Virus record (IMG/VR): IMGVR_UViG_3300037040_000027
Coordinates: 1-21,382 of that record
Length of the DNA: 21,382 nucleotides
Reading direction: 5' to 3' (one strand)
Source of the DNA: a virus
Position numbers and translations under genes: made by a program
Shown: positions 3,104 through 14,678 of the stretch, piece after piece
Layout of the letters: each line of letters opens with the position of its first letter
Numbering within the stretch: position 1 is the stretch's first letter
The notes under the pieces: model-generated
Database searches by the model: none
Seen by the model: only the letters and a program-made list of their open reading frames with translations
Told to the model about the DNA's origin: nothing

Positions 3104-3394
3104 ATGACCCACGGTGTTATTGTTGGCGGTTCATATGTGTTTTCTGCCGAACAAAGGCTTGACAACAGGATTGCGGCGGCAATCGAGGGGGTTGTCCATC
3201 GCCCGGCAGAAGGATCGCAGTTCATCGACCGTGTTGAGGTCCGCCCCGATGCGGATGGAAACATCCTGGTGGCCGCAGGGGCCTCTCGTCGGGTGTTCCA
3301 GAACACCACCACGGGCCGGCTTGCCGCTGCCCAGCACATCAAGGCAGCAGTGCTGGCGGGTCGCGAACCCGAAATCCCGGAAGAATTGGGATAG
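3104..3394 (+). CDS. early protein of unknown function
   Basis: A 96-residue protein with an AGGAG ribosome site eight bases before the ATG and a stem-loop just upstream. It has alternating hydrophobic and polar stretches consistent with a small alpha/beta fold, and no catalytic or metal motif that I recognise. It ends in TAG, directly before the next promoter at 3398. Each of these early units (promoter, leader, one short gene) looks independently transcribed. Confidence 0.6.
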   Translation: MTHGVIVGGSYVFSAEQRLDNRIAAAIEGVVHRPAEGSQFIDRVEVRPDADGNILVAAGASRRVFQNTTTGRLAAAQHIKAAVLAGREPEIPEELG

Positions 3395-3397
3395 GAC

Positions 3398-3425
3398 TTG
3401 CTTTCCCGGATTTGTGGTGTACACT
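3398..3425 (+). promoter_or_regulatory. sigma70-like early promoter 6
   Basis: The -35 TTGCTT is at 3398-3403, the spacer is 16 bp ending in TTGTGGTG, and the -10 TACACT is at 3420-3425. It overlaps the end of the previous gene by a few bases and drives the gene at 3468. Confidence 0.7.
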
Positions 3426-3467
3426 GTACCCGTTGACAACATTCATTCTTCACGAGAGGAGAGTAAC

Positions 3468-3704
3468 ATGACAGTTGCTCAAGCGAAGGTAGCGGTTGAG
3501 GCGTTGCGGGAGAAATACCCGCTTCTGGGGAACTACAAGCTGGCCCGGAAGATTTATATAGGCTACGATGTCAACGATTTCCCCGAAAACACCTATGACA
3601 TCTTTACCGTCCTGGGTTCGGAATACTGCTTCTACCGCATCCTGAACTTCGTTCGCCGGTACGATGCCCGGCAGAAGAAACAAGCCGCTGTGGTTGCGGT
3701 CTGA
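3468..3704 (+). CDS. 78-residue early protein of unknown function
   Basis: A 78-residue protein starting at the ATG at 3468, with AGAGGAGAG immediately upstream. The upstream part of the same open frame reads through the previous gene and the promoter, so the longer version is rejected. The protein begins with a likely helix (residues 2-18), has an aromatic core (Tyr and Phe in residues 29-61) and ends in a basic then hydrophobic tail. I do not recognise it. It is the last gene of the promoter-per-gene region; the next element downstream is a tRNA-like hairpin. Confidence 0.6.
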   Translation: MTVAQAKVAVEALREKYPLLGNYKLARKIYIGYDVNDFPENTYDIFTVLGSEYCFYRILNFVRRYDARQKKQAAVVAV

Positions 3705-3740: not shown

Positions 3741-3786
3741 GCGAGTGGGAACCGGCCTATTGAGGGATCGTACCCCTCACACTCGC
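3741..3786 (+). ncRNA. truncated tRNA-like element (acceptor plus T arm)
   Basis: GCGAGTG (3741-3747) pairs with CACTCGC (3780-3786). Inside, GAGGG (3762-3766) and CCCTC (3774-3778) close a 7-base loop, ATCGTAC. Between the 5' acceptor strand and the T-like stem there are only 13 bases, and these contain GAACCGG, the same D-loop heptamer found in the tRNA at 13242. The upstream leader is also shared with that tRNA. It reads as a tRNA that lost most of its D and anticodon arms, or a deliberate minihelix. The ATG at 3789 follows two bases later. Confidence 0.5.
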
Positions 3787-3788
3787 CT

Positions 3789-4244
3789 ATGAGCTACAAA
3801 TTACGATGTACCGAGGATACTTATGGATACCTGCTGTGGTACGGCAAGGGGGGCCGGAAGCTAGCTACTCTAGCCCGGCGTGACGGCAATGCCTTCACCA
3901 CAGAGCAGCCCCGGTTCACCGGCATGCTGCGTGAGGTGAAGGAAAAATGGGGTGCCTGGGCAGCAGCGGAATACGCGGGAGGTAGAGTAACGCAAAGCTC
4001 GCCGGTGGACGCACCGGAGATTGCTGGCTCAAATCCAGCCCTCCCGATTATCCAGGAACGTCCTGATTCCGTGTTCGTCGTACGCCAGGGTGAGATCGAT
4101 CACGCCGCCACCCAGGCCGAATCCGATGACTGGTACCGTCATGTGACGGTGCTGGAGCAGAAGCACGCCGAACGCGATCCGTCGTATGTCATGCACATCT
4201 ACCGTCGTCGAGGTGGACCCCCAGTGAGACAGGTGAAACAATGA
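3789..4244 (+). CDS. unknown protein spanning a tRNA-shaped element
   Basis: A 151-residue open frame. The first 60 residues look like ordinary protein (aromatic, then Lys/Arg/Glu-rich), as do residues about 90-151. Residues about 63-87 are encoded by bases that fold as a complete cloverleaf (3976-4047). The ATG lies two bases after a tRNA-like hairpin and has no Shine-Dalgarno, so its translation is uncertain. It might be a genuine gene that carries an RNA element, a gene interrupted by a tRNA, or two shorter genes. The stop overlaps the next start as ATGA, which argues that at least the 3' part is translated. The function is unknown. Confidence 0.45.
   Translation: MSYKLRCTEDTYGYLLWYGKGGRKLATLARRDGNAFTTEQPRFTGMLREVKEKWGAWAAAEYAGGRVTQSSPVDAPEIAGSNPALPIIQERPDSVFVVRQGEIDHAATQAESDDWYRHVTVLEQKHAERDPSYVMHIYRRRGGPPVRQVKQ
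3976..4047 (+). ncRNA. tRNA-like cloverleaf with abnormal D and anticodon loops
   Basis: All four stems pair. The acceptor is CGGGAGG/CCTCCCG (3976-3982, 4040-4046). The D stem is GAGT/GCTC (3985-3988, 3997-4000). The anticodon stem is CCGGT/ACCGG (4002-4006, 4013-4017). The T stem is GCTGG/CCAGC around the loop CTCAAAT (4028-4034). The variable region is 5 bases. Oddities are a D loop without GG and an anticodon loop of six bases (or four if one more pair forms), so no normal anticodon can be read. No 3' CCA is encoded. It is likely a degenerate tRNA or a tRNA mimic rather than a decoding tRNA. Confidence 0.55.
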
Positions 4245-4453: not shown

Positions 4454-4737
4454 TGGGTAGCACCGATTACACTTTCATTGCATCGTTCCCCACTCGTGCC
4501 CAGCGTGAGGCGTTGCCACCTGGCGTCAAACGACTCAAGTCGGGCCGGTTGAAGCGGGCCAAGCCCCCGCAACCGACGCTGTTGAGTAAGACGACAGCCC
4601 GCCGACTCCTGTACCTGGAACAGCACGGCCTGGCCGACTGGTTCGGCTCCCGGTTCCGCGTGGCCGCGACCCACTACATCAACAAACTGGGGGAGCGTAC
4701 TAAGCTGCCCAAGGGCATCCAACACCACGGGGTATAG
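4453..4737 (+). CDS. basic protein of unknown function
   Basis: A 94-residue basic protein whose ATG overlaps the previous TAA (TAATG). It has many Arg and Lys in residues 15-50 and a probable helix at residues 45-62. It ends in TAG, which overlaps the GTG start of the endonuclease VII gene (TAGTG), and TGA follows the TAG directly in frame. Its charge and location before a DNA-processing gene fit a nucleic-acid-binding role, but no known domain is visible. Confidence 0.6.
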   Translation: MGSTDYTFIASFPTRAQREALPPGVKRLKSGRLKRAKPPQPTLLSKTTARRLLYLEQHGLADWFGSRFRVAATHYINKLGERTKLPKGIQHHGV

Positions 4738-5393
4738 TGACAAAGACGTGTTCTAGTTGTAAACTGATAAAGCCTCTCGACGAGTTTCACATGCATCCCA
4801 ATGGGCTGCTTGGCCGAAACTCCCGATGTAGGGTGTGCTGCAATGCCCGGGCGAAGGCGTTTCGTGAAGCCAATCCCGACCACATTAAGCAGCAGAAGAA
4901 AACGTGGGCTGCCGACCACCGAGTGGCAATTCGGGCCTATTCGTTCCAAACACGGGACCGAGCGTGGGAATGCTACATTCTCCGGTTTTACGGCCTCACG
5001 CCGAGTGATTTTGACCGTCTGCTTGTTAGCCAAAACGGGGTTTGTGCAGTGTGCCGACAGGCCGAACATGCAGTAGACCCACGCACGGGTATGACAAAAC
5101 GGTTAGCGGTTGACCATGATCACTCCATGGAGTACGCTGCGGGGAAATGCCGCAAGGAAGCGGTTCGCGGTTTACTCTGCACGAAATGCAACACAGCAGC
5201 GGGAATGCTAGGAGACTCCGTGGAGCGTGCGTTTGAACTGGCCGCATATTTCGAGAAATTTTATGGAGGCAAGAATGTTTCTAGTACAGTGGACTCAGGT
5301 GTTTCCCAACAAAACCAGCATCGTGCATACGATGTGGGTTCCAAGCCGGAGGATCGCCACAAAAGCAGTAAAGGAAATAAAGCGGGAGAGTAA
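4737..5393 (+). CDS. recombination endonuclease VII with N-terminal zinc ribbon
   Basis: A 218-residue frame of the T4 endonuclease VII (HNH/His-Me finger) family, which cleaves Holliday junctions, branches and mismatches. Key residues are C103 and C106, the catalytic DHDH (126-129), RGLLC with C148 and C151, and N152. T4 gp49 has the same order of zinc Cys, DH and Asn. Residues 1-35 add a possible second zinc site (C5, C8, C31, C34/C35), absent from T4 gp49. Start is GTG overlapping the upstream TAG. Residues after about 178 look low in complexity and overlap the gene at 5275, so the functional protein may end earlier. A second endonuclease VII lies at 9406. Confidence 0.85.
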   Translation: MTKTCSSCKLIKPLDEFHMHPNGLLGRNSRCRVCCNARAKAFREANPDHIKQQKKTWAADHRVAIRAYSFQTRDRAWECYILRFYGLTPSDFDRLLVSQNGVCAVCRQAEHAVDPRTGMTKRLAVDHDHSMEYAAGKCRKEAVRGLLCTKCNTAAGMLGDSVERAFELAAYFEKFYGGKNVSSTVDSGVSQQNQHRAYDVGSKPEDRHKSSKGNKAGE

Positions 5394-8858: not shown

Positions 8859-9425
8859 GTGGCGATCTGGAATGCAATCCTAGGCTGTGACCCTGGCAGA
8901 ACTGGCGGCTTCGCGGAAATCCGTATCAGGACGCGACTGGTGAGGTCCTGGGCGATGCCCGAGGCCGACGATCGGGGATTGAATGTCGAAGGCGTCCTAG
9001 GAATCCTCGATCAGCTTGCCCCAACCTCCACGCTTGCCTATATTGAATGGCCATCGGGCCGGCCCGGTGAGTCGGCGGAGTTTGCCTTTCGGTTCGGGCT
9101 TCAGTGTGGTGCCCTGGATGCCGCCATGAAGGCCCGAGGGTTCAGTGTACGCCACCTGTCGCCCAATGCCTGGACGGGGGCACTACGACTGGTAGGGAAG
9201 CAGCACCCGGACGCGATCAAGATCAGGCAAAAACTGTGGGCTGAACTTTATCCTGCATTTTCTCATTTGACCCGAGGCCCAAAAGGGGGTACACTGGACG
9301 GTATCCTTGATGCGGCTTTAATCGCCCACTACGGACTGCTCGCGAACTCAGGCATGGGCCTGAAGACGGGCCGAAGACAGCCTAACTTGACGTTGGAGGG
9401 ACCCGATGGCATTCGCGAAACCTGA
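8859..9425 (+). CDS. RuvC-like Holliday-junction resolvase
   Basis: A 188-residue protein with an AGGAGG ribosome site before GTG. It has the RuvC/RNase H-fold acidic set: D11 in GCDPGRTGG, E63 in YIEWPSG, and D147/D151 in the LDGILDAA helix. RuvC-family enzymes cut Holliday junctions symmetrically as dimers; phage members resolve branched replication intermediates before packaging. About 20 bases of its end overlap the next gene, an endonuclease VII, so two unrelated resolvase families are made from adjoining genes. The C-terminal 25 residues extend past the usual core and are probably disordered. Confidence 0.85.
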   Translation: MAIWNAILGCDPGRTGGFAEIRIRTRLVRSWAMPEADDRGLNVEGVLGILDQLAPTSTLAYIEWPSGRPGESAEFAFRFGLQCGALDAAMKARGFSVRHLSPNAWTGALRLVGKQHPDAIKIRQKLWAELYPAFSHLTRGPKGGTLDGILDAALIAHYGLLANSGMGLKTGRRQPNLTLEGPDGIRET

Positions 9426-9795
9426 AGACTACGTCGCGTACCATGCTGCGTACCGTGCCAAGAACCGCGATCGGATAAACGCGAGGAGTAAACAGTACAA
9501 TTGGGAGAATCGGTGGATGGTGTTATACGGGGTAACGCCGGCCTACCTGGACCTGTTGTTCGTGAAGCAAGATGGGAAGTGTGCGGTGTGCGGTGACCCA
9601 ATGAGCATGGAGCCCAGGACTCCGAACTACCGCAATGTGGACCACGACCACGCGAAGCAGAAAGGCGATCCCGGATTTGTGCGGGGTTTGCTGTGTCGGA
9701 ATTGTAACCAGGCCGAAGGGTTCTTGAAGAGTGACCCTGGCAGAGTCCGAGCCCTGGCCGATTATCTAGAACGCCCCATAAGGAGAACGCTGTGA
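9406..9795 (+). CDS. recombination endonuclease VII (second copy)
   Basis: A 129-residue protein of the endonuclease VII family without an added N-terminal zinc ribbon. C59/C62, the catalytic DHDH (79-82), C97/C100 and N101 match the T4 gp49 order. It begins with a basic helix (residues 8-30). It would cut four-way junctions and branches. Compared with the 4737 gene it is shorter and shares the YGVTP/YGLTP segment before the metal site, so the two are probably diverged paralogues. It ends in TGA overlapping the GTG start of the next gene. Confidence 0.9.
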   Translation: MAFAKPEDYVAYHAAYRAKNRDRINARSKQYNWENRWMVLYGVTPAYLDLLFVKQDGKCAVCGDPMSMEPRTPNYRNVDHDHAKQKGDPGFVRGLLCRNCNQAEGFLKSDPGRVRALADYLERPIRRTL

Positions 9796-13240: not shown

Positions 13241-13241
13241 G

Positions 13242-13314
13242 CACACCGTAGCTGAACCGGTAAAGCACCGGGCACTAGGTCCGGGAGATATGGGTTCGAG
13301 TCCCATCGGTGTGC
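13242..13314 (+). tRNA. tRNA with predicted anticodon CUA (amber)
   Basis: A full cloverleaf of 73 bases. The acceptor is CACACCG/CGGTGTG, and G13241 could pair with C73 to give an eighth pair. The D arm has A14, GG and A21 in the standard places. The anticodon stem is CCGGG/TCCGG (13268-13272, 13280-13284) around CACTAGG. The variable region is five bases, and the T arm is ATGGG-TTCGAGT-CCCAT. Loop positions 34-36 read CTA, so it would decode UAG. Position 33 is A instead of the near-universal T, which weakens confidence that it decodes normally. No CCA is encoded. The short variable region excludes Leu, Ser and bacterial Tyr types. G-1:C73 is a tRNA-His feature. Confidence 0.85.
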
Positions 13315-13334
13315 CTTAACTAGGAGTACAGAAC

Positions 13335-14678
13335 ATGGCAACGATCCTTGTAGCATCAGGCGACGACCTCGCCGCAAAAGTTCAAGCGGCACACGCCGGC
13401 GACGTAGTTCAACTGGCGTCTGCCACATGGACTCTGGTCGCCAGTTTCTTCATTCCCTCGGGTGTGACGCTCCAGGGCGACCCGGACGGAGAATCCGAAA
13501 TCATCTTCAAACTCTCGGGCCAGGACCTTCACGGTATCGTGCTTCCTGCCAACGCCAGCAACATCACCATTCGCAACGTGGATATTGTGTCTAGCAATGG
13601 CCTGATCAAGATGTGCGACGGGCAGGGGTATAATGTTGTCACCATTACGGGCTGCTCATTCGAGTACGGCGGCGGGCAGTACGCCAGCGGCACTGATGTC
13701 TTCGGCATCTTCGCCACGATCCCCGGGTTTGGTCTGACCATCAGCAACAACCTCTTCCACGACTCCCCGAACTCCAACCGCAACTGGGAGTTGTACAATC
13801 AAACGAATCTCACGCTCAAGGACAACACCTTCCACAACATCGTGGATGGTGGCCACGTCGTCGAGCCCGGCAACAACTTCATTTTTGACCACAACATCGG
13901 CTCTGGCATCCAGCGGATGGGGCAGGAGATTCAGGGCAACGGCGTCGTGACTGGCATGCAGGTCACCAACAACACCTTCTACGACTGGCGTAACCCCTAC
14001 GAAGACAGCTTCGGTATGTCCATCGTCATGCTGAACGCGGTCAGCCCCCTGATCCAGAGTAACTACGTCGAGTTCAGTATGGCCCCTGGGGCAGTCTGGG
14101 GGCCGAAGGACTCCACCGGGGCTAACCGGTTCGGGTACGGCTACGAACTGGGAGGCAGCAATGTTCAGCTACTCAGTAATACCTTCGTGGCTCTCTTTCG
14201 CTGTGGTGCGGGATACTGCACTGCCAGCAAGACGACCTACGCCAAGGGGAACACCTCCTACGACGCCAACAAGTTTGCCCAGTGGGGAGACTTTACAGCG
14301 GAGACTGGTGGAGCGTACACCAACGCGGCTACCCTTCTTTCTGACAATGCGGTAGAAACCGGCCCGGCACCACTCCCAAACGTCGCACCGGTGCCCGCCC
14401 CCGTGGTGGTCGTGGCACCGACTCCCGCACCAGTTGTTACGCCTGTGGTGCCCGTCTCCACTACTCCGCCAGTCGTGACTCCTACTGCCCCTGTTGTGGC
14501 ACCCACCGCCCCCGCAGTTACTGTTAAGACCATCGTCATCAGCCTCGTCGAATCTGATGGCTCGAAGGTGGACTATAACCTGTCAGTGAGTCTCGTACCA
14601 CCCAAGCACGTCGCCTCCGGCGTCCTGGCACTGGAGTTGTCAGACGGCACGACGCAGATGTATACGATCAAGGTCTGA
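13335..14678 (+). CDS. parallel beta-helix protein (pectate-lyase-like fold)
   Basis: A 447-residue protein. Residues about 1-335 show repeated short turns with Asn ladders and patterns such as NITIRNVDI, LTISNNLFHD, LTLKDNTFHN and MQVTNNTFYD, typical of right-handed beta-helices that bind or cut polysaccharides. Residues about 345-395 form a Pro/Val/Ala/Thr linker, followed by a small beta-rich C-terminal domain. There is no signal peptide. In phages such proteins are usually tail spikes or depolymerases on the virion, so its position between an SSB-like gene and the primase, just after a tRNA, is unexpected. An AGGAG ribosome site precedes the ATG. The substrate is unknown. Confidence 0.75.
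   Translation: MATILVASGDDLAAKVQAAHAGDVVQLASATWTLVASFFIPSGVTLQGDPDGESEIIFKLSGQDLHGIVLPANASNITIRNVDIVSSNGLIKMCDGQGYNVVTITGCSFEYGGGQYASGTDVFGIFATIPGFGLTISNNLFHDSPNSNRNWELYNQTNLTLKDNTFHNIVDGGHVVEPGNNFIFDHNIGSGIQRMGQEIQGNGVVTGMQVTNNTFYDWRNPYEDSFGMSIVMLNAVSPLIQSNYVEFSMAPGAVWGPKDSTGANRFGYGYELGGSNVQLLSNTFVALFRCGAGYCTASKTTYAKGNTSYDANKFAQWGDFTAETGGAYTNAATLLSDNAVETGPAPLPNVAPVPAPVVVVAPTPAPVVTPVVPVSTTPPVVTPTAPVVAPTAPAVTVKTIVISLVESDGSKVDYNLSVSLVPPKHVASGVLALELSDGTTQMYTIKV

Follow-up and report, generated by a model that had tools for sequence, protein, structure and literature searches.

Among the closest described counterparts of the structures reported here are the tRNA-like RNAs mascRNA and menRNA (Rfam RF01684), which are cut from the MALAT1 and MEN-beta transcripts. 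According to the accessible part of PMC11693755, RNase P and RNase Z use the acceptor/T-arm stack of these RNAs together with the elbow, and the GG of the D loop is crucial for the elbow. RNase P is described as measuring the T-stem-loop/acceptor stack in the available portion of PMC4919913, and its substrates, in the available text of PMC11143913, include phage RNAs and an mRNA, that of T4 gene 32. Since phage substrates of RNase P, an mRNA among them, are already on record, the general kind of thing is known. Our literature search, which covered few subscription papers, returned neither a phage tRNA-punctuation system nor a phage coding sequence with a conserved cloverleaf in it; in the accessible part of PMC6157547, the wording 'within an ORF' concerns attachment sites, not tRNAs. 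Nor did the search return tRNA mimics located before start codons that lack a Shine-Dalgarno (SD) sequence and inside a phage coding gene.

The DNA analysed, hereafter the window, is the whole 21,382-nucleotide stretch of the viral record IMGVR_UViG_3300037040_000027, whose gene content is that of phage replication, with a DNA polymerase, a primase, an exonuclease and an AAA_24 protein. A cloverleaf lies within one of its open reading frames:

3789–4244, + strand: host open reading frame of 151 aa, codons 63–87 of which form the embedded element.
3976–4047, + strand: embedded tRNA-like cloverleaf, recognized by its Rfam tRNA score, its fold z and its L012 homologue.
3976–3982 / 4040–4046, + strand: acceptor stem, 7 Watson-Crick pairs.
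3985–4000, + strand: D arm, stem 3985–3988 / 3997–4000 with one T-G wobble, loop AACGCAAA, no GG.
4002–4017, + strand: arm in the anticodon position, stem 4002–4006 / 4013–4017, 6-base loop GGACGC.
4018–4022, + strand: variable region.
4023–4039, + strand: T arm, stem 4023–4027 / 4035–4039, loop CTCAAAT.
A4047, + strand: discriminator base.
L012:8152–8223: homologue of the embedded cloverleaf, 67/72 bases identical, 49.4 bits with the Rfam tRNA model.

The initial annotation had described four tRNA stems within 72 bases, including a 7-bp acceptor and a CTCAAAT T loop, a D loop without GG and an anticodon loop one base short, and all these elements are present. With the Rfam tRNA model (RF00005, gathering score 29), a scan of a 701-base stretch gave 44.4 bits (E 3.9e-8) for 3976–4047, so that the covariance-model check proposed in the annotation came out in favour of a tRNA-like fold, and both this copy and its L012 homologue exceed the gathering score. 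The element was missed by a whole-window Rfam scan run with fast filters and by ARAGORN on the window, and the L012 copy is returned by ARAGORN as 'tRNA-???' with a two-base anticodon. The fold energy of 3976–4047 is -34.2 kcal/mol, against -23.9 +/- 3.1 kcal/mol in shuffled sequences (n=200), none of which folded as well (z -3.3); the embedded cloverleaf is thus more than chance pairing. In the minimum-energy fold, the arm in the anticodon position has 6 bp and a 4-base loop.

A working tRNA has a 7-base anticodon loop with U33, and the tRNA elbow relies on G18-G19 in the D loop. Both embedded copies carry instead the 6-base loop GGACGC, and their D loops, AACGCAAA in the window and AATGCAAA in L012, lack the GG; the window copy also has C54, and CCA is not encoded. 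Because the 6-base loop is unchanged in both phages, the element is probably no working tRNA, and given its loop size, the missing U33 and the missing D-loop GG, we have not filed it as a tRNA gene. Against known phages and plasmids, its best matches were short or weak. An attP-type fragment was also considered, and no integrase was found among the window ORFs scanned (nine against PHROG and nine against Pfam, three of the latter being repeats). A pattern search with the core of the anticodon-position arm matched the L012 contig and six unrelated hairpins. In these six other viral contigs, the arm sequence CCGGTGGACGCACCGG (4002–4017) forms a perfect hairpin with a T-rich stretch behind it, within unrelated flanks, and these hairpins look like terminators.

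Relatives were taken from IMG/VR and comprise the near-identical L001 and L002, which stop short of the host ORF region, and the more distant L003/L004, L006, L007 and L012. The phage collection contained no near relative of the window, and a search of genome contigs gave no relative. The host ORF alone as query gave no relatives, and its alignment and the neighbouring 94-aa protein, each used as query, gave the L012 contig only. This 46,448-base phage contig (also handled as G001) is the only relative found that covers the host ORF. Elsewhere in the comparison of the window with L012, a long frame (3114–3704) overlaps the gene at 3104–3394 and shows 2-base length differences, which point to shifts in where the genes end or to mistakes in assembly.

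As the initial annotation had noted, the frame 3789–4244 stays open through the cloverleaf, and so does the homologous L012 frame, whose product is 68% identical. The protein had no PHROG match, no Pfam match above the cut-off and no phage record by tblastn, and its low-confidence structure model (pLDDT 39.1) shows residues 63–94 as coil between structured parts. Nei-Gojobori-style counting by script on the two sequences, window and L012, gave pN/pS values of 0.26/0.67 for codons 1–62, 0.05/0.10 for codons 63–87 and 0.21/0.59 for codons 88–151. By these values per segment, the flanks behave as a coding gene, and both appear protein-coding, while silent sites are held even inside the element. 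Synonymous differences amount to 2.0 over 20.3 sites within the element, compared with 27.8/41.8 and 25.5/43.5 outside (Fisher p 3e-5, rounded counts). The synonymous-site comparison suggested in the annotation, made with L012 only, thus shows divergence dropping from about 0.6 outside to 0.10 across the element.

Between the two copies there are five base changes, yet all 21 of 21 pairs are kept, one D-stem pair having changed on both sides from A-U to G-C; the loss of stems in relatives, which the annotation had named as grounds for rejecting a real element, was not observed in L012. The changed codons are AGA/GGG, ACG/ATG, TCG/CCG and GGC/GGT, and the first three alter the protein, which argues that the protein was not what was conserved in the element. 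With two rows only, pair counts for the embedded element cannot reach significance, and 242 of 500 shuffles equalled the observed value.

The initial annotation had proposed a dead tRNA absorbed into the gene. On this account, a former phage tRNA gene inserted itself there and survives as protein-coding sequence only, and its high identity in the two phages comes from recent exchange between mosaic genomes. Recent exchange could indeed explain the high identity of the embedded element, given that in these mosaic genomes many stretches are equally alike: L012 matches the window at 67 or more of 72 bases in 23.7% of 13,155 72-base windows, and in 11.8% of those from the local segment. The frame is open in both phages and may encode a tolerated linker, and the anticodon loop is unusable. 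A short recent exchange could mimic constraint on identity, but it explains less well why all stems are intact despite five base changes, with one pair preserved by a two-sided change. Of the four changed codons all but one are non-synonymous, which also speaks against a dead tRNA, as do the synonymous divergence that falls at the element and rises on either side, and the retention of the same stack in other tRNA shapes of the family (described below). We regard a dead tRNA as unlikely, though it keeps some weight, and the comparisons make it less likely than a tRNA mimic under selection. The mimic, which the annotation had also put forward, is the best-supported reading, and it gains strength from other degenerate tRNA shapes in the same phage family.

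The annotation had further suggested that 3789–4244 might not be one gene. Under this explanation, two genes have a tRNA element between them and the frame is open by descent or through a recent fusion. The triplet just 3' of the element is ATC in the window and GTT in L012, where other elements of the phage have ATG; an AGGA (4054) and a GTG (4071) are conserved downstream, and the low-confidence model predicts coil across residues 63–94. However, both halves are conserved as protein in a single frame without a stop in both phages, a start codon occurs at that spot in neither, the 13 bases between AGGA and GTG make a long spacing, and tblastn of the halves against the family contigs turned up no relative in which the two are separate. 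The suggestion thus goes mostly unsupported and two present-day genes are improbable; since ATC/GTT sits where other elements have ATG, the ORF may instead be the product of an in-frame fusion that took place long ago at the element.

A second set of tRNA shapes was found before the gene starting at 13335, one base before the motif TTAACYAGGAG, where five different versions of the element were recovered from the window, L003/L004, L006, L007 and L012 (hereafter site 1):

13241–13315, + strand: window version, a cloverleaf 5' of TTAACTAGGAG-N8-ATG (gene 13335), called tRNA-Pyl(cta) by ARAGORN, 51.9 bits with the Rfam tRNA model.
L003/L004: 58-base form, no anticodon arm.
L006: 62-base form, with a GAGCA-GTAA-TGCTC hairpin in the middle.
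L007: GAT form.
L012: 32-base interrupted hairpin only, with one outer-stem mismatch.

The window version has the anticodon CTA and carries A33 where U33 is expected, and it aligns at 74–76% to phage tRNA-Trp genes (E-values 0.001–0.6). Suppression of amber codons or TAG recoding by this CTA tRNA was considered and dropped, as TAG ends 6 of the 26 listed genes and the loop has A33. In an alignment of the acceptor and T arm from four of the five versions, 98.1% of 52 cells are paired and 6 of 13 pairs have changed on both sides, and 0 of 500 shuffles came up to the observed percentage of paired cells or to the score for covariation. We had trimmed the rows to these two arms, so the alignment leans toward structure, with the 3' end fixed by the neighbouring motif as a control; L012 was left out, as the aligner misplaced the gap into another stem on account of its 6-base loop. 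For a helix with its end at precisely this place, shuffle p values were 0.009, 0.012, 0.014, 0.058 and 0.281 across the five versions. The different forms may have arisen independently, with one tRNA taking the place of another; whatever their origin, the upper half is always present. As to the surroundings, in the window a 447-aa right-handed beta-helix protein (13335–14678) separates the element from the primase, and in L006 and L007 the site-1 element directly precedes the primase with no beta-helix gene between. The sequence TTAACCAGGAG, seen at site 1 of the window, likewise stands before the homologue of gene 3104 in L012 (L012 7231; G001rc 20483), with no evident tRNA shape ahead of it.

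A third group consists of elements reduced to an acceptor stem and a T arm, located immediately upstream of start codons:

3741–3787, + strand: acceptor + T-arm element without D or anticodon arm, ending 1–2 bases before ATG 3789.
2314–2353, + strand: weaker candidate with a 6-bp acceptor and a T arm, ending 2–3 bases before the SD-less ATG 2356.
214–259, + strand: weaker candidate with a 7-bp acceptor and a T arm with loop TTCGATT, ending 1–3 bases before the SD-less ATG 261.

In the first of these, 3741–3786 forms a 7-bp stem and a 6-bp T-type arm (shuffle p 0.014). Its L012/G001 counterpart is longer, combining an 8-bp stem, one further hairpin and a T arm whose loop reads TTCGATTT, and ends 2 bases before the homologous ATG (p 0.017). 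Neither of the two reaches a Rfam tRNA score, and no SD was found at ATG 3789 or at the homologous ATG of L012. The minimum-energy fold of the element at 2314 prefers another pairing, and the start at 261 is uncertain, as it was chosen after the element had been seen; the relatives yielded no counterpart of either candidate, and the 214 element in particular was not found in L012. A tRNA shape directly before an SD-less start is therefore seen at 3789 and at its L012/G001 homologue, with 261 and 2356 as candidates, and this arrangement is absent at 13335, where an SD follows, and at 3976–4047. On the + strand, our acceptor + T-arm scanner lists, at a score of at least 25, six distinct elements in the window (three abutting an ATG and one an SD) and eleven in G001 (one next to the ATG that opens a long ORF, another being the embedded element); the window copy of the embedded element scores 24, below this list, and the scanner is not specific. 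A further match, in L013 at 3001, was rejected, as the ORF around it has its start further upstream, behind an SD.

At these two other places, then, the acceptor/T-arm stack is kept before genes, while the sequence, the D arm and the anticodon arm vary or vanish. The selected part would accordingly be the stack as measured by RNase P on the 5' side and RNase Z on the 3' side, and since the part that is kept is the one that these enzymes measure, we read the elements as processing marks. It is close to an even call, leaning slightly against, that 3976–4047 is a functional tRNA-mimicking RNA within a genuine protein-coding gene of the phage and belongs to a small tRNA-derived set whose members serve as cutting marks in polycistronic mRNA. 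Host RNase P and RNase Z would cut the mimics out of phage mRNA in the manner of mitochondrial tRNAs. Cutting after the discriminator would produce leaderless mRNAs beginning 5'-U-AUG at 3789, at its L012 homologue and perhaps at 261, and perhaps UU-AUG at 2356, and cutting at site 1 would give an mRNA with a short SD-containing leader at 13335. Inside 3789–4244, cutting would compete with translation: ribosomes reading through would unfold the embedded element and make the full 151-aa protein, and without read-through, the message would be cut at the element, a small tRNA-like RNA released and full-length expression ended. As the ATC/GTT that follows the embedded element provides no start, ending the message or releasing a small RNA would be the likely effect. 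The more specific proposal, that stripped-down tRNA mimics with a dispensable lower half are punctuation marks cut by host enzymes and that the one inside the coding sequence sets the amount of full-length protein, is put forward tentatively.

Assigning a processing role to the elements is a good guess, against which stand the embedded element's lack of the D-loop GG, C54 in the window copy and the missing CCA; a cut within a coding sequence would also destroy the message, which is an odd design. If the proposal holds, the same bases would be under selection both as a structured tRNA-like RNA and as protein. Annotators usually discard genes containing 'AGSNPA'-like stretches as translated tRNAs, and the locus serves as a warning to them, as at 3789–4244 the gene seems real and so does the tRNA shape. 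Separately, the ORF 4737–5393, a few genes downstream of the tRNA-like ORF, matches endonuclease VII and HNH PHROGs, and 9406–9795 reads by eye as a similar HNH-type protein.

Instead of marking a cut, the embedded element could be released as a tRNA-like RNA acting in trans, to lure away or inhibit a host enzyme that binds tRNA, for instance a synthetase, a modification enzyme or a defence nuclease that cleaves tRNAs. Such a role would suit a cloverleaf that is complete and stable, has no decoding loop and is retained in both phages, and its C1-G72 with A73 resembles bacterial tRNA-Pro, which has this combination. The other elements of the family, however, often lack the lower half, so that a shared target in trans is hard to see, and those before genes are placed as cis elements; we hold action in trans to have little probability.

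Nor does it seem probable that the elements are RNase III hairpins or translational operators that resemble tRNAs by chance. The L012 version of site 1 is barely more than an interrupted hairpin, as that explanation would have it, but the full versions score 44–52 bits with the Rfam tRNA model, the T loops read TTCGAGT, TTCGATT and TTCAAGT, and the window version of site 1 aligns to phage tRNA-Trp genes as given above. A working but unusual phage tRNA gene that overlaps a protein gene, for which the scores above the Rfam gathering cut-off in both phages speak, is very improbable in view of a 6-base anticodon loop without U33, a D loop without GG, and ARAGORN results limited to a two-base anticodon in L012 and nothing at the window copy.

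The reading of the elements as tRNA-mimicking processing marks can be compared with four known systems. Like phage tRNA genes, the fullest elements form a complete cloverleaf, and the window version of site 1 is similar in sequence to tRNA-Trp genes; they differ in their abnormal anticodon loops (A33 or 6 bases) and in the arms lost in relatives. With mascRNA and menRNA, they share a retained acceptor and T arm, an arm in the anticodon position with a longer stem and compact loop, and a location inside a longer transcript, whereas those RNAs come from eukaryotic long non-coding RNAs and the putative phage marks lie in a coding sequence or before starts, the embedded copy without the D-loop GG. 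RF01684 is the best Rfam match of the L006 element, at a sub-threshold 20.9 bits (cut-off 42.5), and gives no match to the embedded copy at E up to 10; as the phage elements are below the threshold of this model or absent from its matches, we speak of a likeness to mascRNA and not of membership.

Like the RNase P substrates T4 gene 32 mRNA, C4 RNA and M3 RNA, as presented in the available text of PMC11143913, the elements would be tRNA-like substrates within phage transcripts, and they differ from these in that one of them is a cloverleaf conserved within a coding sequence, for which the literature found gave no phage precedent. With mitochondrial tRNA punctuation, the window and L012 share tRNA shapes, some of them degenerate, that abut start codons without an SD (at 3789 and its homologue); mitochondrial tRNAs also translate, whereas most of the phage elements probably cannot, and their processing is presumed. 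If the reading is correct, a bacterial virus would shape its messages through the tRNA-processing machinery as mitochondria do, using mimics that need no decoding.
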